A stretch of DNA of 64,000 bases from NCBI RefSeq assembly GCF_003355155.1, contig NZ_CP031320.1:6623861-6687860 (forward strand), in the 5' to 3' direction. Shown piece by piece: positions 1,943 through 11,054 of this stretch (its first letter is position 1; each line of letters opens with the position of its first letter). Origin of the DNA: Streptomyces armeniacus. Lineage in GTDB: Bacteria; Actinomycetota; Actinomycetes; Streptomycetales; Streptomycetaceae. The notes beneath the pieces were generated by a model. It had not been told where the DNA came from, did not search any database, and worked only from the letters and a program-made list of their open reading frames with translations. A program made the position numbers and the translations under genes.

Positions 1943-2680
1943 GCGCCCTCCCTCTCCACCGCTGAGCCGGCCAGGCCATGACTGAAACCATGCGATGGGG
2001 CCGATGTGCTGGGGAAGAGCGCATCGAGGGCGCGGAAGGGCACGTTGGAGGAGGCACGCGGGCAGCACGCGGTCCATAGGGGCCGCTGTACAGCAACACG
2101 AGCAGCAGTCCCGACGACCGCCCACGGAAGTCTCGTGTCTGTGGACTACAGTTTCTCCGTGGACATTTGCTCGCCTTCCTCAGCCAACCAGCCGTCACAA
2201 TAGGCCGCTTGCTCGCCCGCGTCTGAGTACAGGTTGCCGCAGTGCATGCCATCGGAGGGGCAGATACCACCTTGTGGGCCCCCGAAGGCGGCACGTATCT
2301 GCTCCCGTGTACGGGTATCATCGGGGTGGCACTGGCAGCGCCGCGGGCATGGCGCCGAGGAATCGATTCCCCATCTACACACCTACGTCGGTGCAAGCCC
2401 TCGCTAGCGTCTCCAGGTACTCGCCCGATCTGCCAAGCAGGTCTCAGCAACTGCCCCACTCGTCGTTCGGAACGGGAGGGTCGGTCCGCGTGCCACAGCC
2501 GTGCCAGAACGAGCGGGGACTCAGAGGGAGTCCAGGAACCTGACAGTCGCTCAACCGGGTACCGCTCTCGCAAGTCAGCCAGTACCCACCGAATGCGTGC
2601 CAGCCAAGACGGTAAGTCATGGTCAACAACGCGTGCCAGACAGACAGCTCACTGTTCCCCTGGGGCACCGTGGGCGCTGG
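1943..2680. other. Decayed region with a possible small ORF
   Basis: No convincing full-length gene is present. On the minus strand 2146-2382 encodes a Cys-rich stretch (PRRCQCHPDDTRTREQI, then CPSDGMHCGNLY) that could be the tail of a small protein. The frame 2444-2668 also looks partly coding (YRLGWHAFGGYW). Both lack convincing starts and may be pieces of one broken gene belonging to the integrated element. Confidence 0.35.
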
Positions 2681-2815
2681 TCAGGTAGTCGCTCCGCTCT
2701 CCTGTTTCCTGTCGCCGGAACCGCCGTCGTCCGGGCTCTCGGAGCTACCGCAGGCCGTGAGCGTGAGGGCGGTGACGAGCCCCGTGGCGGTCACGGCAAA
2801 GGGTGCTCGTGTCAT
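2681..2815 (-). CDS. Very short lipoprotein (44 aa), possibly truncated
   Basis: ATG at 2815 starts a 44-codon frame: a short basic N-terminus (MTRAPF), a hydrophobic core (VTATGLVTALTL) and a lipobox LTAC at about residues 19-22, then a Ser/Gly/Asp-rich tail that stops after KQESGATT. This is a textbook lipoprotein signal peptide with linker but without any folded domain. It is either a true mini-lipoprotein or the N-terminus of a lipoprotein cut off by loss of the neighbouring element. No strong ribosome binding site is visible. It is divergent from the histidine kinase gene downstream. Confidence 0.5.
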   Translation of the reverse strand: MTRAPFAVTATGLVTALTLTACGSSESPDDGGSGDRKQESGATT

Positions 2816-2934
2816 CAGCCCGAGCACGACGATTTCCGCCTGCATAGCGAGGGGCCCTTCGCATGTGCCCTGGACGGCCGGGGGCCCTGCGCAGCGGAGA
2901 CTGGGCGGAGAGGGGTGAGGACTAGCGTCGCGGC

Positions 2935-4182
2935 ATGTTCGAGGCTGCGGCTGCGTCGCTGGTGCGGGCTGTCCGTCCCGTGGTCGTCCGGTGGCGTGCG
3001 CGGGGCGTGCTGGTGCACGACGCCGTGTTCACCGCGGTGCTCGCCCCGGTGGTGTTCGCGCCGGGTACGGCCCATATCGGCGCCGAGTTCGGTGATCTGC
3101 CGCAGCGGCCGCTCGACGCCGTGGGAGTGCTCGTCATGGTGGCCCTGTGGGTGCCGCTGGCCGTGCGGCGCCGGTGGCCCGGGGTCTGCCTGGCCGTCGT
3201 GGGGAGCGCGTACGCCGCGCATGAACTGCTCGGCTGTCCGGAGACGTTCGCGACCGTGGGGCTGTACGTCGCCCTGTACAGCGCGGGTTCTCGGATCGCG
3301 GGTCGTCCGCTCGTGGTGGCGGCCGCTTCCGCGACGGGTGCGTACGTCCTGTTCGCCGTCGGGCTGCACGCCAAGGGCTCGCCTCAGCGGCTGTCGGACT
3401 TCGTCACGATCTACGTGGTGCTCGCCCTGTGCTGGGGTGCGGGCGCGTGGGTGCGGGTGCGGCAGGCCAGGGAGGCCGTACGGCGTCGGCTCGGCGCGGC
3501 GGCGGCGAGGGAACAGGAACGCGCCCGGATCGCGCGGGAGTTGCACGACGTGGTGACGCACCACGTCACCGCGATGGTGGTGCAGGCCGACGCGGCGCAT
3601 GTCGTGCTGGCCGAGGCGCCCGATCGCGCGGCCGAGGGCCTCACCACGATCGGCGATTCCGGCCGCCGCGCCCTGGACGATCTGCAGCATCTGCTGGGTG
3701 TGTTGGACGCGTCCGGCGACGGCTCCGGAGACGCGTCGGTCCCGGCTCGTCTGACCGATCTGGTCGAGGAGACGCGCGCGGCCGGCCAGCCCGTGGAGCT
3801 GACCGAGCTGACCGAGCTGACCGAGCGGGGCGAACGGCGTCCGGCCTCCGGAGGCGTTGAACTCGCCGCGTACCGGGTGGTGCAGGAGTCGCTGACCAAC
3901 GCGCTCAAGTACGCGCCCGGTCGGAAGACCGCCGTGCGGGTCCGTTACGGCCTCGAGGAGACCGACATCGAGGTGACCACCGACGGGCCGGACGCCGCGG
4001 TGGCGGACGGGCCGGAAGGGCAGCCAGGCGGGCCCGGCGGGCCGGCAGGGCCGCGCGGCGGGGGACGCGGCCTGGACGGGCTACGGGAACGGGTGAGCGT
4101 GCTGGGCGGCGAGCTGCTCGCGGGCGCCCGGCCGGACGGCGGCTTCGTCGTCCACGCCCGCGTGCCCTCCGGGAGCGACTGA
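2935..4182 (+). CDS. Sensor histidine kinase (DesK/NarL-partner family)
   Basis: A 415-residue membrane kinase. About five hydrophobic segments occupy residues 30-165. These are followed by the HisKA_3 dimerisation box ERARIARELHDVVTHH with the phospho-accepting His at about 204, an N-box-like QESLTNALKYAP, and a glycine-rich end GRGLDGLRERV of the HATPase domain. It should autophosphorylate and pass phosphate to a NarL-type regulator; the obvious partner is the regulator at 5882. The two are separated by a secreted lipoprotein gene, which may be the sensed or controlled product. A 9-bp unit (gaccgagct) repeated three times encodes ELTELTELTE in the linker near residue 290, and the ATP-lid region carries a Gly/Pro-rich insertion. 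Confidence 0.85.
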   Translation: MFEAAAASLVRAVRPVVVRWRARGVLVHDAVFTAVLAPVVFAPGTAHIGAEFGDLPQRPLDAVGVLVMVALWVPLAVRRRWPGVCLAVVGSAYAAHELLGCPETFATVGLYVALYSAGSRIAGRPLVVAAASATGAYVLFAVGLHAKGSPQRLSDFVTIYVVLALCWGAGAWVRVRQAREAVRRRLGAAAAREQERARIARELHDVVTHHVTAMVVQADAAHVVLAEAPDRAAEGLTTIGDSGRRALDDLQHLLGVLDASGDGSGDASVPARLTDLVEETRAAGQPVELTELTELTERGERRPASGGVELAAYRVVQESLTNALKYAPGRKTAVRVRYGLEETDIEVTTDGPDAAVADGPEGQPGGPGGPAGPRGGGRGLDGLRERVSVLGGELLAGARPDGGFVVHARVPSGSD

Positions 4183-4415
4183 CCGGCGCCAACGGCCTTG
4201 TAGTCGTACGCAGTTGTGCCGGCTCGCTCGGACCACGAGCCGGGGCCGGGAACCAGCGCCATTTTTTCCGCGTCCTTGACGAAAAGGTTGACCACCTCAG
4301 TCCGGGCGCGACCGAGCAGTGCTCGCTGCGCCGGGCAGGCCACTCCCGGTGGCTCTCCGACCGCACATCACGAACGTGAACGGTGAAACAGGGCGCGAAA
4401 GAAGGGAAATCTCTC

Positions 4416-5765
4416 ATGGGGGACAGCGTCGGCAGGCACTCGACCGAAAGCGCCGAAAGCGCCGAAAGCACTGATGGCACTGAAAGCGCTGAAGGCACAG
4501 GAACCGCCAGGCAGGGCGCGTTGTCCCGTCGGCGGATGCTCGGTGTGTCCGGGGCCGCCGGGCTGGCCGTACTGGGTGCCGCGGGGTGTCAGAGCGACGA
4601 CTCCGGATCGGGTGGGAAGGACGCCGGAGGGAACAAGCCGGGGGAGGTGGGCAGTCAGTCCGGGCGCGGGGAATCCGGGAAGCGCGAGGAAGGCCCCCGC
4701 CTTGCGGACGCCGTCCTCGGCGCGAACTTCAACGGCGACCCGTCCAAGGTGACCTTCGCCGAACTCGAGGACGTCTCGGCGACCTGGCTGCGCGGTTTCT
4801 TCCCCATGGACGACGCGGACAAGGACTCCATACCCGGGAAGCCGCAGATCAAAATGCTCCTCGACGCCAAGGAGCGCGGACTCGGCACGTCGCTGTCGCT
4901 GAAGTTCCAGTACAAGGGGGAAGCCATTCCGACGCCGGGCAGCGAAGCCTGGAAAACGGCGTTCGCCCGCCTCGACAAGGTGCTGCCGGCCGTCATGAAC
5001 AAAATCGACATCCTGGTGATCGGCAACGAACCGTTCCTCGAGACCCGCGAGGAAGACCGCGACCGCCGCCTCAACAAGTTCTACGAGAAGCTCGCCCGGC
5101 ACGTCGTCGCGTACCGCGACAAGCACTCCGCGACCGGGACCAGGCTCTACATGGGGGCGCTCAACCACATCGACTGGGAGGACGGGAAGACGGCCGCCAC
5201 ACAGCGCTGGATGGACTTCGTGAAGAAGACCAAGGGCATCGACGGAGTGGACATCCACCCGCACGTGTCGTCGCTGGCCGGCGCCCAGGAGTACATCGAC
5301 TACGTACTCCCCCGCATGCGTCCTGAACAGAAGTTCCTGGCCACCGAGTTCTCGCTCGTCCTGTACTGGCAGGAGCACATGGCGGACCCGGTGGCCGCCG
5401 GTTTCGCGGAGAAGTACCCGGAGACCAAGGGCATGCAGGTGTGGGAGGTGCTCCGCGAGGCCACACAGGAGCGCTTCACGCAGGAGCAGTGGAGCGACTT
5501 CTTCGCCATGACTCCCTGGCTCCGCAAGCAGCGGAACTATCTGCGGGAGCAGGTCGAGATGTTCCGCAAGACCGAGCGGCTCGCACTGGCGGGTTACGGC
5601 GTGAGCCAGGACGAGGCGATGACGGTGGAGATGACCGCCGAGAAGAAGCCCTGGATGCTCAACAGCCTGTTCTGTCCGTACACCGTGCGGGACGGAAAGG
5701 ACGGTCTGCCCGGGCGGAACACCACATGGATCGGGCAGTTCCGTGAGCTTCAGAAGAAGTCCTGA
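4416..5765 (+). CDS. Tat-exported lipoprotein with glycoside-hydrolase-like barrel
   Basis: About 449 residues from ATG 4416, preferred over the in-frame ATG at 4383 because gaagggaaa lies upstream. The N-terminus has a Ser/Glu repeat (ESAESAES), then a twin-arginine motif SRRRMLG, a hydrophobic stretch and lipobox GAAGC. The mature part looks like a (beta/alpha)8 glycosidase: VIGNEPF and FLATEFS sit where clan GH-A enzymes hold the acid/base and nucleophile Glu, and DGVDIHPH resembles the His-bearing strand between them. I cannot assign a GH family, so the substrate is unknown. It lies between the kinase at 2935 and regulator at 5882 on the same strand and may belong to their regulon. Confidence 0.6.
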   Translation: MGDSVGRHSTESAESAESTDGTESAEGTGTARQGALSRRRMLGVSGAAGLAVLGAAGCQSDDSGSGGKDAGGNKPGEVGSQSGRGESGKREEGPRLADAVLGANFNGDPSKVTFAELEDVSATWLRGFFPMDDADKDSIPGKPQIKMLLDAKERGLGTSLSLKFQYKGEAIPTPGSEAWKTAFARLDKVLPAVMNKIDILVIGNEPFLETREEDRDRRLNKFYEKLARHVVAYRDKHSATGTRLYMGALNHIDWEDGKTAATQRWMDFVKKTKGIDGVDIHPHVSSLAGAQEYIDYVLPRMRPEQKFLATEFSLVLYWQEHMADPVAAGFAEKYPETKGMQVWEVLREATQERFTQEQWSDFFAMTPWLRKQRNYLREQVEMFRKTERLALAGYGVSQDEAMTVEMTAEKKPWMLNSLFCPYTVRDGKDGLPGRNTTWIGQFRELQKKS

Positions 5766-5881
5766 GGGACGGGGGCGGATCGGATGCCCGCGTGGTTAAC
5801 GGAGCGCAGTAGGGCGGACGGCCGTCCTGGCTACGGGAGACGGATTCACCGGCGGGCCCCGAATTCGGTCGGAGGTGCGGT

Positions 5882-6562
5882 GTGAGTGAGCCGATACGTG
5901 TGCTGATCTGTGAGGACCAGCAGCTCGTGCGGGCCGGTTACGTCACCATTCTCGGCTCGGAGCCCGACGTCGAAGTGGTCGGCGAGGCCGAGGACGGAGG
6001 CGAGGCGGTCGAGAAGGCCGGGCGGCTGCGCCCCGACGTCGTGGTGATGGACATACGGATGCCCGGCATGGACGGCATCGATGCGACCAGGCTGCTCGCC
6101 GGGCCCGACGTCGCCGACCCGGTCAAGGTGCTCGTGGTGACGACGTTCAACGTCGACGAGTACGTGTACGCGGCCCTGCGCGCCGGGGCCAGCGGGTTCC
6201 TGCTCAAGAACGCGCGGCCGGCGGAGCTGGTCGACGCCGTGCGTACGGTCGCCACCGGCGACTCGCTGCTCGCACCGGCGGTGACCCGCAGCCTGATCGG
6301 CCGCTTCGGCGAGCGCATACGCCCCGGCGGCCCCGTGCCGCCGGACGAGCGGGAGCACGCCGCACTGACGCTGCGCGAGACCGAGGTGCTGCGGCTGATC
6401 GCTACGGGGATGTCCAACGCGGAGATCGCGGAGCAGTTGGTGATCAGCCATGAGACGGTGAAGACGTACGTCTCCCGCATTCTGTCGAAGCTGGAGCTGC
6501 GCGACCGCGTGCAGGCGGTCGTCTTCGCCTACCGGACCGGTGTCATGGAGATGCGCGGCTGA
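5882..6562 (+). CDS. NarL/LuxR-type response regulator
   Basis: A 226-residue regulator starting at GTG 5882, preceded by tcggaggtg. The receiver domain (residues 1-120) has acidic residues LICEDQQ, the phospho-acceptor Asp at about 57 in VVMDIRMPG, and the conserved Lys in FLLKN. The C-terminal LuxR helix-turn-helix (about 160-218) reads LTLRETEVLRLIATG then SNAEIAEQLVISHETVKTY. It is likely the target of the DesK-type kinase at 2935. The intervening lipoprotein gene makes this a three-gene signalling unit on one strand. Confidence 0.9.
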   Translation: MSEPIRVLICEDQQLVRAGYVTILGSEPDVEVVGEAEDGGEAVEKAGRLRPDVVVMDIRMPGMDGIDATRLLAGPDVADPVKVLVVTTFNVDEYVYAALRAGASGFLLKNARPAELVDAVRTVATGDSLLAPAVTRSLIGRFGERIRPGGPVPPDEREHAALTLRETEVLRLIATGMSNAEIAEQLVISHETVKTYVSRILSKLELRDRVQAVVFAYRTGVMEMRG

Positions 6563-6643
6563 GGCCGCAACCGGTCACCGCGGCGGGCCGGTTGGCGTCG
6601 TGCGAAACAGCGACGAAAGCCCCCCTGCCGGTACACAGGCACC

Positions 6644-7240
6644 ATGCGTGTGCTGATCGTGGATGACACAGCGGGCGACGGGGATCACGGGGGCCGCGGC
6701 GACGGGAGCGGTCCTGTACGGCGCGGGGAGTCGGCCGCCGAGCGGCTGGCCGGTGAGCTGCGGCGCGCCGGGTACGCCGTGGCGGTCGTCGGTGACGACG
6801 GCGCCGTGCCGCGCCCGTCCCGGCCGCCGCACCCAACGCACCCGCCCCGCCCGTCCGTTCTGGAGTACGCCGGACTCGTACTGGACGCGCCGCGCCGCCG
6901 TGCCAGCCGCGAGGGGCGGCCGGTGCTGCTGTCCGCCCGGGAGTTCGGCGTGCTCGAGGTGCTGATGCGGGCCGACGGTGCGGTGGTCAGCGGCGAGGAG
7001 CTGGTGGCCCGTGTGTGGAACGGGGAAGTGGGCGCCCGGAGCAACGCCGTACGGATCACCGTCAGCAGACTGCGGGCCAAGCTCGGGAAGCCGGTGGTGG
7101 TGGAGACGGTGCCGCGGGTCGGGTACCGCCTGCGGCGGCTGCCCCTCTCTCAGGCGGCGGCGCCCCGTGAGGCGCCTCACGCGGCGCCCCGCCCGGCGCC
7201 TCACGGGACGGCCAACCGGCGGCCCGCGCCGTCGCCGTAG
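6644..7240 (+). CDS. OmpR-type winged-helix regulator with degenerate receiver
   Basis: 198 residues. It begins like a receiver (MRVLIVDD) but only about 60 poorly conserved residues separate this from the DNA-binding domain. The phospho-acceptor Asp, switch Thr and Lys are all missing and are replaced by a Gly/Arg-rich stretch and a PPHPTHPPRP linker. The winged helix (about 75-165) is intact: LVLDAPRRRASREGRPVLLS, then REFGVLEVL, VRITVSRLRAKLG and VPRVGYRLRR. No kinase gene adjoins. It probably binds DNA without phosphorylation control. Its 3' end overlaps the convergent exporter gene by 40 bp. The winged helix resembles that of the regulator at 12339. Confidence 0.75.
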   Translation: MRVLIVDDTAGDGDHGGRGDGSGPVRRGESAAERLAGELRRAGYAVAVVGDDGAVPRPSRPPHPTHPPRPSVLEYAGLVLDAPRRRASREGRPVLLSAREFGVLEVLMRADGAVVSGEELVARVWNGEVGARSNAVRITVSRLRAKLGKPVVVETVPRVGYRLRRLPLSQAAAPREAPHAAPRPAPHGTANRRPAPSP

Positions 7241-9162
7241 AGCCGCGCGTACGTGCCGCCCCGCGCCAGCAGTTCCGCGTGGCGGCCCGACTCCACCAGG
7301 CGGCCCCCGTCGAGTACGAGGATGCGGTCCGCGTCCGGGGCCACGTGCAGATCGTGCGTGATGAGCAGCGTCGTACGCCCGTGCATCAGGTGCCGCAGCG
7401 GCGCGATCACCTGGCGGGCGGCGACGGCGTCGAGGCCTGCCGTCGGCTCGTCCAGGACCAGTACGGGGGAGTCGCGCAGCAGGGCACGGGCGATGGCGAT
7501 GCGCTGGAGCTGGCCGCCGGACAACTGGGCGGTGCCCGGGGCGATATGGGTGGCGTAGCCGTCGGGGAGCGCGGCGATGAAGTCGTGGGCGGCGGCGTCG
7601 CGGGCGGCCCGGCGGATCTCGTCGTCGGTCGCGGTCCCGCCCGGCCGTCCGCAGGCGATGTTCTCGCGGATGGTGCCGTGCAGGACGAGCGTCTCCTGGG
7701 GGAGGAGCGTGACGCGCTCGCGCAGGAACTCCAGCGGGAGGGCGTCCAGCCGTATCCCGTCGAGCCGGATGTCGCCGGCGGCCGGGTCGTAGAAGCGGGG
7801 CAGGAGCTTGGAGACGGTCGACTTGCCGGCGCCGCTGGGCCCGGTGAGCAGGATCAGCTCCCCGGGGCGCGCGGTGAAGGAGACGTCGCGGAGGGCGTAC
7901 GGGGCGCGGTCGGGGCTGGGGCCGGGGCCGGGCGCGCGGTCGAGACCGGGGGCGCGCACCGCTTCGTCCGAGCTCCCGTCGGGGCCGGGGTAGCGGAACG
8001 AGACCCGGTCGAACTCCACCACGCCGCGTATCCCGTGGGGCGGGCGCCCGGCGCCCGGCGGGTCGGTGACGGCGGGCTTCGCGGCGAGGATCTCCAGCAG
8101 CCGCTCGGCTCCCGCGGTGGCGGCGGTGACGACGAGCCCGAGCTGGCCCAACTGCCGTATCGGCGGGAAGAGATAGCCGAGGAACGCGGCGAAGGACAGC
8201 AGCTGCCCGAGCGTCATCCGGCCAGCGGAGATCTCCCACGCGCCGAGCCCGATGATGGCCAGAACGCACACGGTCTCCATGACCTCGACCAGCTGCTCGT
8301 ACATCTCGCTCAGCCGGTTCCCGCGTACGGACGCGCGCATCCAGGCGCCGGCCTCGGTGCTCAGCCGCTGCTCCTCGTCGCGCTGCCGGTTGTACGCCTG
8401 GGTCAGCACTATGTTGCCCAGCGACTCCTCGACGACGGAGGTGATCGCCCCGTCGGCGACGCGCTCCTGCCGGGCCGCGGTCTTGATACGGGTGGCGAAC
8501 TGCCGGGCGGCCAGCCAGAACAGCGGCGCAAGCACGAACGTGGCGAGGGCCAGGTCCCAGCGCAGGAAGAGCGCGGCGCCGAAGAAGAAGACCGTGCTGA
8601 ACAGCGCCGACACGGTCTGGACGACCCCGGAGACGACCATCTGCTCGATGGCCTCGACGTCGCCGGTGAGGCGTTCCACGAGGTCGCCCTGGCGGTGGCG
8701 CTGGAAGAAGTGCGGCGGCAGCGCCTGTACGTGGCCGAAGACGCGGGCCCGCAGCCGCATCACGAACCGTTCGGCGACCCATACCGCGGCGGAGTTCCCG
8801 GCGTAGCCGACGAGGGCGCCGAAGACCGCCATTCCCAGCCACTGCGCGGCCGGTCCCCAGAACGCGCTGACCGACCCCTTCTGCAGGGCGTTGTCGGCCA
8901 GTTGGCCGAAGAGGAGGACGGCGCCGGTCTCCGCGAGGGCGGCGACCACGACGCACAGGCAGATCAGCACCAGCCAGAGCCGGTCGCCCTCGGTCATCGG
9001 CCAGAAAGCACGGAACGCGTGGCGTGCGGACGCGCTGGCCGAGGAGCCGTCCTTCTTTTCCCCGCCCGCGAATTCCGGTGCGGGATTGGGCGGCACGGGA
9101 AATTTCGGTACGGGTGTGAAAGCCCGCAGCCGTACCGTCGGCTCGTCCTCGTACGGAGACAC
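7201..9162 (-). CDS. ABC exporter, fused membrane and ATPase domains
   Basis: 653 residues from GTG 9162, preceded by GAGGAG at good spacing. A hydrophilic Pro-rich N-terminus of about 60 residues is followed by six membrane segments (about 65-340) with the exporter loop HFFQRHRQGDLVERLTGDVE. The nucleotide-binding domain follows: Walker A TGPSGAGKST, Q-loop LLPQET, signature LSGGQLQR and Walker B VLVLDEPTAGLD. There is no C39 peptidase domain. It has the architecture of lipid, drug or peptide half-exporters that work as dimers. The small two-cysteine peptide gene at 9258-9410 is transcribed just upstream on the same strand, so peptide export is a reasonable hypothesis. A Pro/Gly-rich insertion occurs before the ATPase domain. 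Confidence 0.85.
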   Translation of the reverse strand: MSPYEDEPTVRLRAFTPVPKFPVPPNPAPEFAGGEKKDGSSASASARHAFRAFWPMTEGDRLWLVLICLCVVVAALAETGAVLLFGQLADNALQKGSVSAFWGPAAQWLGMAVFGALVGYAGNSAAVWVAERFVMRLRARVFGHVQALPPHFFQRHRQGDLVERLTGDVEAIEQMVVSGVVQTVSALFSTVFFFGAALFLRWDLALATFVLAPLFWLAARQFATRIKTAARQERVADGAITSVVEESLGNIVLTQAYNRQRDEEQRLSTEAGAWMRASVRGNRLSEMYEQLVEVMETVCVLAIIGLGAWEISAGRMTLGQLLSFAAFLGYLFPPIRQLGQLGLVVTAATAGAERLLEILAAKPAVTDPPGAGRPPHGIRGVVEFDRVSFRYPGPDGSSDEAVRAPGLDRAPGPGPSPDRAPYALRDVSFTARPGELILLTGPSGAGKSTVSKLLPRFYDPAAGDIRLDGIRLDALPLEFLRERVTLLPQETLVLHGTIRENIACGRPGGTATDDEIRRAARDAAAHDFIAALPDGYATHIAPGTAQLSGGQLQRIAIARALLRDSPVLVLDEPTAGLDAVAARQVIAPLRHLMHGRTTLLITHDLHVAPDADRILVLDGGRLVESGRHAELLARGGTYARLYGDGAGRRLAVP

Positions 9163-9211
9163 CGCGCCACTCCTCTTCCGTGCCGTCCCTGAATCCCGTG
9201 CCCGCGCGCGC

Positions 9212-9245
9212 CCGGAGGCGGGCCCCCCACTGGGCCCGCCTCCGG
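9212..9245 (-). terminator. Strong hairpin between peptide gene and exporter gene
   Basis: A perfect 14-bp stem (9212-9225 with 9232-9245) has a 6-nt loop and no T run. It lies 12 bp after the peptide stop codon and about 50 bp before the exporter start. It could be a partial terminator or an mRNA-stabilising 3' structure, which would raise peptide expression over transporter expression as in many peptide operons. Confidence 0.7.
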
Positions 9246-9257
9246 TAGGTGTGGATG

Positions 9258-9410
9258 TCAGCAGCCGCCGATGGGGCGGGCCGGCTTCCAGCAGCCGGGC
9301 TGCGCCGGGCGGGCGGGCTCCGCCGGCCGGGCGTGGCCGCCCTTGCCCGGCTTGCCGATGGCGATGCCCCTGCGCGTCTTGGTGATGGCGATGGTCTTAC
9401 GGGCGCTCAT
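9258..9410 (-). CDS. Small basic two-cysteine peptide, candidate RiPP precursor
   Basis: A 50-residue frame with ATG at 9410 and a good ribosome binding site (GGGAGA, about 6 nt upstream). The N-terminal half is basic and Gly-rich (MSARKTIAITKTRRG, then KPGKGG). The C-terminal half is Pro/Ala-rich and contains the only two cysteines, in GCWKPARPIGGC, with the last residue being Cys. A possible leader/core boundary lies after the GG near residue 25. It is followed by a strong hairpin and an ABC exporter on the same strand. No LanB/LanM, radical-SAM or ATP-grasp enzyme adjoins, so the product may be a disulfide-linked peptide or be modified in trans. I do not recognise the family. Confidence 0.65.
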   Translation of the reverse strand: MSARKTIAITKTRRGIAIGKPGKGGHARPAEPARPAQPGCWKPARPIGGC

Positions 9411-9550
9411 GGTGTTCTCCCTCTCTCGGTGTTGCTCGCGTTCTTCGGTTTTCCGGAATTCCCGGGCGTGGCCCGGGAGATGAATGCGTAACGCATTCCC
9501 GTACGCCTCCGTGCTGTGCTTTCGATGGCGACACAGAAGACGTTAGGCGA

Positions 9551-9617
9551 GCGGCACGTGCCGCCGATACCTTTTCCGATGAGGTCTCGCTTAATTGAGA
9601 ATGAGAGCGTTTCTCAT
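9551..9617 (-). promoter_or_regulatory. Two palindromes in the peptide gene's upstream region
   Basis: GCGGCACGTGCCGC (9551-9564) is a perfect 14-bp palindrome. Forty bases farther upstream of the peptide gene, TGAGAA(9)TTCTCA (9596-9616) overlaps ATGAGA(5)TCTCAT (9601-9617). This AT-richer stretch, within the 356-bp gap 9411-9766, is the likely promoter/operator zone of the peptide gene and perhaps of the divergent gene at 9767. The second element looks loosely like a Fur/Zur-family site, but its spacing does not match the standard boxes. Confidence 0.45.
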
Positions 9618-9766
9618 CTGTAACGGGGAGTTTTATCCGGCACTTATGCGGAGGCGCCTAGTCCGGTTCATCGCGTACGCGCGCTCGCGGGGGGTCTGAC
9701 GGAAGGGCACCATACGGGGTACCCCGGGCAGTTCGTCCGCTGATCGAACCGCTAGCCTCCGCATGC

Positions 9767-10507
9767 ATGACCGATCCTCAACCCCCCAACCGACCTGCCG
9801 GGGGTGAGCTCGCGAGACCACCGGCCCGCCGCGTCGTCCTGCGGCTCGCCGCGGGTGCCACCGCGGCCCTGCTCGTCACCGACCTCGCCACGCGCGGCTA
9901 CAACCGCTACGACGCGATCCCGACCATCCGCCGCTTCGTGAACGTCGACGTCGAGGCCAACCTGCCGACGTGGTGGAACAGCACACTCCTGCTGGCCGTC
10001 GCGGGCACGGCACTGACCGCCGCGCTGCTCAGCGGGCGCGGCGCGCGCCCCGGCCGGCTGTCGTGGCTGGCCCTCGCCGCCGCGACGGCGCTGCTCAGCA
10101 TGGACGAGTCGGCCTCGCTGCACGAACGCCTCGGCGAGGTCGGCAAGTCGTGGAAGGAGTGGGCCGGGGTCTCGCTCCCCACGCACGCCTGGGTCCTGCC
10201 CGGCGCGGTCCTCGCGGTGGCGGGCACCGTGTGCGCCGTGCTGTGGGCCCGTAAGCTCCCGCGCGACCTGCGGTTCGGGCTGCTGGCCGCGCTGGCGGTG
10301 TATCTGGGCGGTGCACTGCTGACCGAGGCGTTCAACGGCTGGGCGCACTCGAACGACTACAGCACCGCGCTCATGCTCGGCACGATCGTGGAGGAGGGCC
10401 TGGAGATGAGCGCCTGCCTCGTCGCCCTCGCCACCCTCGGCCGGTACGTGGTGCTGGAACGCGACCCGGAGTCCGGCCGCGCGGTGGTCCGGCTCGCGAA
10501 CGCGTAG
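9767..10507 (+). CDS. Conserved multi-pass membrane protein of unknown function
   Basis: 246 residues. After a short Pro-rich N-terminus there are about six hydrophobic segments (for example AAGATAALLVTDL, LLLAVAGTALTAALL and VLAVAGTVCAVLW). The acidic motif LLSMDESASLHERLGEVG between segments recalls a signature seen in families of uncharacterised bacterial membrane proteins (S-x-D-E-x-x-x-x-H-E). A second acidic/His cluster, LTEAFNGWAHSND then IVEEGLEMS, suggests metal- or proton-linked chemistry in the membrane, which is an inference. It is divergent from the small peptide gene, with which it shares a 356-bp intergenic region. Function not assigned. Confidence 0.65.
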   Translation: MTDPQPPNRPAGGELARPPARRVVLRLAAGATAALLVTDLATRGYNRYDAIPTIRRFVNVDVEANLPTWWNSTLLLAVAGTALTAALLSGRGARPGRLSWLALAAATALLSMDESASLHERLGEVGKSWKEWAGVSLPTHAWVLPGAVLAVAGTVCAVLWARKLPRDLRFGLLAALAVYLGGALLTEAFNGWAHSNDYSTALMLGTIVEEGLEMSACLVALATLGRYVVLERDPESGRAVVRLANA

Positions 10508-10625
10508 CCGCCTCGGGCCCGGGGCGGACCCGAGGCGGTCGGCAGCCTGGCCCGCCGGTACAGGGGGTCAGGCCGGCGGACCGTACGGCGGCCGGGGTGC
10601 TGTACGGGCTTTCCGTACGCGGGGG

Positions 10626-11054
10626 TCACACGCGGGCGTCGAGGCGGTGCAGCAGTGAGCCGTCCGGGCCGAACACGTCCAGCACGTAGTCCTCTTCCGG
10701 CGGGTCACCCTGCTCGTGCAGGAAGCCGGTGATCGAGTCCTTGAGAGCGTCGAACACCTCGGCGTCCTCGTTCTTGTCGCGCGTCCACACCGTCAGCTGC
10801 TCGGCGCCGCCGGGCCCGGAGCCGCGCAGGATCGCGTACACGTCCTTCGCCCCGCCCGACTCCCGGTAGCGGTCCGCGAGCCGGACCGCCTTGTCGGGCG
10901 CGGTGGTCGAGGTGGCGGTCGGGCCGGGGGTTTCGGAATCGGAGGCGGAGGGGCGGTCCGGGGCGGGGTCGCTGTCCGAAGTGCAGCCGGACAGCAGGGC
11001 GGCGGCCACGGCGCAGGCGCAGGCCAGCGCCGTCGTGTGGGGGGTACGGATCAT
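10626..11054 (-). CDS. Lipoprotein of unknown function
   Basis: 142 residues. The signal peptide (MIRTPHTTALACACAVAAA) ends in lipobox LLSGC near residue 24. A Ser/Thr/Pro/Asp-rich linker follows, then a roughly 90-residue domain (DKAVRLADRYRESGGAKDVYAI to LLHRLDARV) that I do not recognise. It should be anchored on the outer face of the membrane. It lies downstream of the kinase gene at 11128 on the same strand with a 73-bp gap and may be cotranscribed. Confidence 0.7.
   Translation of the reverse strand: MIRTPHTTALACACAVAAALLSGCTSDSDPAPDRPSASDSETPGPTATSTTAPDKAVRLADRYRESGGAKDVYAILRGSGPGGAEQLTVWTRDKNEDAEVFDALKDSITGFLHEQGDPPEEDYVLDVFGPDGSLLHRLDARV

Follow-up and report, generated by a model that had tools for sequence, protein, structure and literature searches.

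Short cationic peptide genes beside an ABC exporter in Streptomyces armeniacus and related actinobacteria

A 50-codon gene in front of an ABC exporter

Whether a short open reading frame (ORF) in front of an ABC exporter gene encodes a genuine peptide, and whether that peptide belongs to the exporter, is the question raised by a locus in Streptomyces armeniacus, whose 8.08-Mb genome forms one contig. The window, by which we mean the whole 64,000-nucleotide stretch of DNA analysed here, carries on its minus strand, in this order, an upstream region (~9540-9616), a 50-codon ORF, a hairpin and the ABC exporter gene. The features of the locus are as follows.

9602..9616, minus strand: inverted repeat TGAGAAACGCTCTCA, operator-like, with counterparts upstream of relatives
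9580..9588, minus strand: second upstream element GAGACCTCA (GAGGTCTCAG or GAGGTCTAAG in many relatives)
9540..9545, minus strand: -10-like hexamer TAACGT (TAGTGT or TAATGT in many relatives), a putative -10 element
9258..9410, minus strand: cationic peptide gene, 50 amino acids, MSARKTIAITKTRRGIAIGKPGKGGHARPAEPARPAQPGCWKPARPIGGC, net charge +10 (from the ORF, the profile and family comparison)
9212..9245, minus strand: perfect 14-bp GC hairpin without a T run, a presumed partial terminator or mRNA 3' stabiliser
7201..9162, minus strand: fused ABC exporter, a TMD-NBD half transporter of 653 amino acids with a GTG start at 9162 (from Pfam and structure matches)

The peptide gene has an ATG start, codons at 9261-9410 and a stop at 9258-9260, and is preceded by a good ribosome site, gagagagGGAGaacaccATG. 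A preliminary description had reported this ORF (9258-9410, minus strand), the 14-bp hairpin and a fused, peptidase-free ABC exporter, all of which were confirmed in the sequence. The peptide has cysteines at positions 40 and 50 only, within GCWKPARPIGGC, and a hydropathy of -0.62, and carries GG at or beside its C-terminus with no core behind it. Its AlphaFold model is of low confidence (mean pLDDT 63.8, pTM 0.14), with no secondary structure assigned. An open frame of 70 codons, picked by a frame-composition rule, lies antisense to the peptide gene (9271-9483, plus strand); conservation in relatives favours the minus strand, and thus the peptide gene, over this frame.

The peptide family and its linkage to the exporter

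A direct peptide search of 295 genomes of the genus returned low-complexity matches only (best foreign E 6e-4), and a DNA search with 9200-9780 in 61 relatives produced short matches only, apart from the window's own place, and almost all of these lay in the part comprising the peptide-coding sequence and the hairpin. The family became visible only via the neighbourhood of the exporter, a methodological warning, as direct similarity search alone would have suggested 'no homologues'. An exporter-led search of named genomes identified 220 relatives, and the best 80 of these were examined. A regular expression for the peptide N-terminus matched 128 short ORFs within 1.6 kb upstream of the exporter in 75 of the 80 loci, and two further peptides, MSFRIVAPL... 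in L072 and, by a looser comparison by eye, MAIGKITPG...RRRLIGG in L060, raise this to 77 of 80. In the three loci outside the count, the peptide is reduced to a C-terminal remnant next to an exporter that is present (L110), the exporter match is disrupted and starts at residue 111 (L108), or the contig starts 41 bases upstream of the exporter (L097). The 128 matches fell in 128 kb of upstream plus strand, compared with nine in the remaining 1.84 million strand-bases of these loci, one of which is a true relative beside a second exporter (L090). Since the family stands upstream of 77 of the 80 exporters and the regular expression matches more often there, the linkage of peptide and exporter exceeds chance. 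The preliminary description had taken the ORF for a genuine peptide gene that is coupled to the exporter, the hairpin lying between them, and had named a lack of conserved homologues beside this exporter family as evidence against itself; such homologues were looked for and found, in its favour.

The same linkage was seen with a fixed rule for cationic ORFs (ATG, ribosome-site-like motif, 28-60 amino acids, net charge of at least +8, Lys plus Arg at least 20%, within 750 bases). A qualifying ORF preceded 71 of 77 exporters versus 9 of 243 other long genes at these loci, the latter called by a simple frame-composition rule, with L089, L097 and L099 left out of the 80 for too little upstream DNA. 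One of the nine is the second exporter of L090. The exporters that failed the rule were L032, L034, L079 and L090, where peptides are present by other criteria, and L108 and L110. Seen from the side of the peptide, exporter DNA lay alongside 55 of 56 fetched peptide loci (some genomes contributing more than one).

The distribution of the family was followed with a profile, A2, built from 34 peptides (33 of the 128 and that of the window). The profile recovers the window peptide, itself one of its rows, in its own genome at E 9e-10. At least 59 of 392 genomes were positive in the genus sample (E 1e-4), at least 21 of 197 in the order sample (all within one of six genera) and at least 4 of 296 in the class sample (E 1e-3; all within one of 114 genera), these being lower bounds as part of the first-look candidates were scored (18 of 218 in the window's genome). 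The profile also missed divergent peptides that accompany exporters of this kind in two genomes, G390 and G095. Searched with the same 34 members, Pfam gave no match at E 0.1 and NCBIfam only Rv1535, in two of the 34 (best E 0.013), an identity that we rejected as low complexity. Rfam yielded nothing over 7000-11000 at E up to 1, a PDB sequence search with the peptide gave chance-level matches only (E 0.17-0.44), and no description of the family was found among the open-access papers searched, including by literal N-terminal strings.

The 128 peptides are 36-55 amino acids long, with a net charge of +7 to +15 (median +12) and a median hydropathy of -1.2. Typically, a start of the form MSxxK[IV]xP, present in most, is followed by a variable middle of Lys, Pro and Ala (Arg, Pro and Gly in the window's branch) and then by RP[VI]G with a short tail. 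Most of what is conserved goes beyond the preliminary description: the cationic composition, the occurrence of tandem copies, the promoter region and, in the peptide itself, a [K/R]K[IV]xP-like motif at the N-terminus and RP[VI]G at the C-terminus. The preliminary description had instead made a two-cysteine or disulfide-bonded peptide the defining feature, which the family does not support: 101 of the 128 relatives have no cysteine, 27 have one and none has two, so that the pair is peculiar to the window peptide. A C-terminal cysteine occurs in nine of the 128. As a trait of the family, the disulfide was rejected.

Loci carry one (38 loci), two (27), three (6), four (2) or five (2) copies of the peptide gene, which mostly differ in sequence and are preceded by ribosome-site-like sequence. 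Over 194 pairs at least 75% identical, which overlap and are not independent, the pooled dN/dS was 0.33 (pS 0.244, pN 0.092), with an excess of third-position changes. The peptide is therefore under purifying selection among close relatives; the window peptide and L032-L034 were too divergent to enter the pairs, which places the window's own branch outside this result.

We think it probable, if not assured, that peptide and exporter form a two-gene cassette in which hydrophilic cationic peptides are made in excess over a dedicated exporter, recognised by their N-terminus and secreted unmodified. A promoter of its own would drive the short, hydrophilic, strongly cationic peptide, which would be made in excess because the hairpin behind the peptide gene would stop some of the transcription before the exporter gene. 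The ABC exporter, dedicated to the peptide and presumably a homodimer, would recognise the N-terminal motif and move the whole peptide outside without a built-in protease or modification by neighbouring enzymes. Once secreted, the peptide would most likely act on anionic targets, either the envelopes of competitors or the producer's own surface or matrix.

Hairpin, upstream region and gene neighbourhood

The hairpin (9245-9212, minus strand) consists of 14 perfect pairs and a 6-base loop, with a predicted stability of -36.8 kcal/mol (z -3.7) that none of 200 shuffles reached. It is absent from the list of a consensus terminator scan and has no T run behind it; partial termination is therefore something that we infer. 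In the relatives, a hairpin of strict pattern (AGGCGGG...CCCGCC) stands behind the last peptide copy at 69 of 75 loci and behind none of 53 earlier copies. By eye, three of the misses (L034, L053 and L079) have a variant hairpin, one (L069) has a further peptide at that place and one (L090) lacks the hairpin; in L095 the left arm lies ~80 bases further on and its partner is beyond the stretch inspected. In 18 aligned hairpins, which were chosen, one loop-side pair is changed on both sides in nine.

The order of ORF, hairpin and exporter, with the hairpin directly after the last ORF, would also be expected if the short ORFs were regulatory leader peptides, the translation of whose Lys/Pro- or Arg/Pro-rich sequence controls the hairpin and thus an exporter whose cargo is an unrelated drug or metabolite; ribosomes can be slowed by stretches rich in Pro and Lys. 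This explanation is nevertheless unlikely in our view, given that there are up to five tandem copies of mostly different sequence, that earlier copies are not followed by a hairpin of this pattern, and that the C-terminal RP[VI]G is conserved in most peptides.

The upstream region is conserved in most of 76 sequences, with TGTTTTCC present in 59, CTGTGTGA in 38, CGAGGTCT in 27 and AGGTCTCA in 24. The branch of the window has its own version, made up of the inverted repeat, the second element and TAACGT; a sigma-70 consensus promoter scan found no promoter for the region of this -10-like hexamer. The pattern of the window's inverted repeat, TGAGANNNNNTCTCA, has three sites in the whole genome. 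When up to two mismatches are allowed, a further element, TTMATCGAGGTCTMAGCGGAAWTGG, has a single site in each of 11 genomes out of 199 of the genus. All 11 sites adjoin a peptide found by the profile, and the element is therefore operon-specific where it is found; it is missing at the same threshold from 19 of the 30 peptide-positive genomes of that sample, including that of the window. Between tandem peptide genes, for example in L044, L064 and L111, A/T-rich stretches (AATTCACAG, GTAAATCA) recur after some earlier tandem copies and may represent a second promoter.

Clustering of neighbouring genes at 81 loci indicated that many relatives sit in one chromosomal setting, with frequent clusters such as a 5'-nucleotidase (53 loci), a GNAT acetyltransferase (49), a response regulator (47), a histidine kinase (43), a trypsin-like protease (29) and an LmeA-like protein (23). 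The window, L032 and L033 are without any of the frequent clusters, and L034 has only the acetyltransferase. Constant across these settings are the peptide and the exporter. No RiPP modifying enzyme was found by Pfam among representatives of eight frequent clusters, two neighbours of L032 and six neighbours in the window, and for the neighbours scanned this bears out the earlier statement that no maturation enzyme is adjacent. No immunity gene was recognised.

These neighbourhoods bear on whether the peptide is a precursor that an enzyme from another part of the genome modifies, as in a split-locus RiPP, before it is exported. A conserved N-terminus and a variable middle resemble a leader and its core, and RiPP clusters can be split. 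Yet the C-terminus is conserved as well, cysteine is mostly absent, and neither the frequent neighbour clusters nor the scanned neighbours in the window include a modifying enzyme, which leaves a split-locus precursor improbable. Export of an unmodified peptide remains the reading that we prefer.

Two other genes of the window may be recorded here. A gene at 6644-7237 (plus strand), convergent with the exporter gene and overlapping its 3' end, encodes a 198-amino-acid protein with a Trans_reg_C DNA-binding domain and no receiver domain by Pfam. Another, at 4383-5762 (plus strand), encodes a 460-amino-acid protein that begins like a lipoprotein (GAAGCQ) and matches nothing in Pfam or NCBIfam at E 0.001.

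The exporter, its distant relatives and known systems

The exporter matches ABC_membrane (PF00664) and ABC_tran (PF00005) above the Pfam cut-offs, with two generic ATPase matches below them, and by the fusion of TMD to NBD it appears to be of the MsbA/ABCB type. Among solved structures it is closest in sequence to P-glycoprotein and, in the membrane part, to exporters of drugs and lipids; its substrate may therefore still be a small molecule or a lipid. The alignment column of Glu78, in the first membrane helix, contains an acidic residue in 19 of 19 peptide-linked rows and Thr in L221; with this single, peptide-free outgroup, and the mis-framed L212 row left out, an argument from cavity charge is only suggestive.

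In a tree of 80 exporter rows (the window and 79 loci, L108 being left out), the window-like peptides (4 rows), the RRPIGG peptides (10 rows, L110 by its remnant) and the MSFRVIAPL peptides (3 rows) each require a single change. Peptide types thus fall on single exporter clades, which indicates common descent as a pair and is not a sign of physical recognition. Among the 80 loci, S. endocoffeicus, S. fuscichromogenes, S. sp. S3(2020), S. fulvoviolaceus and S. sp. SID13726 each have two cassettes with different peptide types. In L090, two exporters of the subfamily lie close together (~2435-7800), each with a short peptide gene of its own (MSLKKLAPLPKPK... and MSFRVIAPL...).

Nearly the whole exporter has been lost in L170 with the peptide gene kept, and in L164/L195 (one genome), L176 and L185 the peptide is kept beside an exporter without much of its membrane domain; the peptide can therefore outlast its exporter, at least for a while. 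Such persistence would be expected of a peptide that stays inside the cell as a small cationic binder of nucleic acid, polyphosphate or a membrane surface and that partners or regulates the exporter. The Lys/Ala/Pro composition, which is also that of histone H1 tails, and the lack of a predicted fold would suit such a role. It does not readily explain why an exporter accompanies nearly every peptide locus or why one exporter has several peptide copies, and we give an intracellular peptide little credence.

Exporters outside the main group extend the pattern. A short cationic ORF precedes 9 of 11 of them (L212, L213 and L220-L228), the positives being L212, L213, L220, L222, L223-L225, L227 and L228 and the negatives L221 and L226; these ORFs were picked by eye from lists of ORFs with ribosome-site-like sequence, and the background of 9 in 243 under the fixed rule applies. 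For example, the exporter of Nonomuraea gerenzanensis (L212) is 49% identical and is accompanied by a 38-amino-acid Arg/Cys/Trp-rich ORF and a hairpin, that of a Streptomyces nigrescens plasmid (42%) by a 53-amino-acid Arg-rich ORF, that of L222 (48%) by a short ORF of net charge +12 and that of L220, from another family (43%), by one of +10; no comparable ORF lies upstream of the L221 exporter (39%). The closer exporters of L215 (67%) and L219 (69%) have divergent short ORFs of +15 and +11. Of 35 genomes of the order of G738, seven have close relatives of the L220 exporter, L220 included, and six of these exporters have MPLKKILPPPPKPK-like or comparable short peptides upstream, L226 being the exception. 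The 38-amino-acid ORF of L212 (2780-2896) has five cysteines and is a candidate for disulfide chemistry in this distant branch.

A start resembling M-x-hydrophobic-x-K-[ILV]-x-P is common to the Streptomyces group and the order of G738, and is a candidate export signal; the peptides of L212, L213 and L222 lack its full form. The distant peptides otherwise vary widely (Lys/Pro, Arg/Cys/Trp, Lys/Thr/His), and they are so different that one stalling motif shared by regulatory leaders seems unlikely.

Of known systems, leaderless bacteriocins such as aureocin A70 and LsbB, the latter with LmrB, are like the cassette in being short cationic peptides without a cleaved leader, and some of their loci hold several peptide genes, four in the case of aureocin A70. 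According to PMC6131525, some such loci combine tandem short cationic peptides with a dedicated exporter and no maturation enzyme, and LmrB is reported both to secrete LsbB and to confer immunity to it. The peptides described here are likewise short and cationic (36-55 amino acids, +7 to +15), with a transporter alongside (77 of 80 exporters, 55 of 56 peptide loci). The amphipathic, hydrophobic or Trp-rich membrane-active fold that we associate with the class was not found in them: the hydropathy (median -1.2; window -0.62) lies below the approximately -0.14 to +0.7 given for the class in PMC6131525, a range that leaves out the aureocin A53-like peptides, and the model has no secondary structure. 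Aureocin A53 has five Trp according to PMC11580447, which also covers 97 actinobacterial peptides. The composition thus lacks the hydrophobic or Trp-rich character, and the cassette would therefore work like a leaderless bacteriocin system without being one.

Double-glycine bacteriocin exporters also stand beside a small peptide gene, and the membrane domain of our exporter shows weak kinship to an 'ABC-type bacteriocin transporter' (8vow, 4ry2). PCAT1 is a name for the C39 peptidase type of such exporters. Unlike these class II systems, the exporter at 7201-9162 has no C39 peptidase domain by Pfam, and nothing that could be a core follows the GG of the window peptide. The MsbA, P-glycoprotein and multidrug ABCB exporters, its best sequence matches among solved structures, transport lipids or drugs and, to our knowledge, are not encoded next to a peptide gene. 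Finally, the proline-rich antimicrobial peptides of animals and insects are rich in Pro and Lys or Arg and hydrophilic, and the family resembles them in composition, with no claim of homology; as far as we know, a bacterial origin of such peptides would be unusual.

Cassettes of this kind would easily be missed by gene finders and RiPP mining because their ORFs are short, of low complexity and without an adjacent maturation enzyme. That the family is nearly always beside its own exporter suggests a secreted, little-noticed class of short cationic peptides. A broader view, which we offer tentatively and with somewhat more doubt than belief, is that several actinobacterial orders may share an unrecognised secretion system, in which an ABCB-type subfamily and an Mx-Phi-x-K-[ILV]-x-P-like signal would deliver intact polycationic, often Pro-rich peptides, akin to proline-rich antimicrobials or extracellular polycations, that have diversified in copies and composition (Lys/Pro, Arg/Pro, Arg/Cys/Trp) with their cognate exporters. 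Should the peptides prove to be secreted, a simple two-gene system delivering ready-made cationic peptides would be present in at least 15% of the Streptomyces species sampled (59 of 392 genomes). It would provide a small, directly testable peptide-exporter pair for the recognition of unstructured polycations by ABCB-type exporters, and a new source of candidate peptides with antimicrobial or matrix roles.
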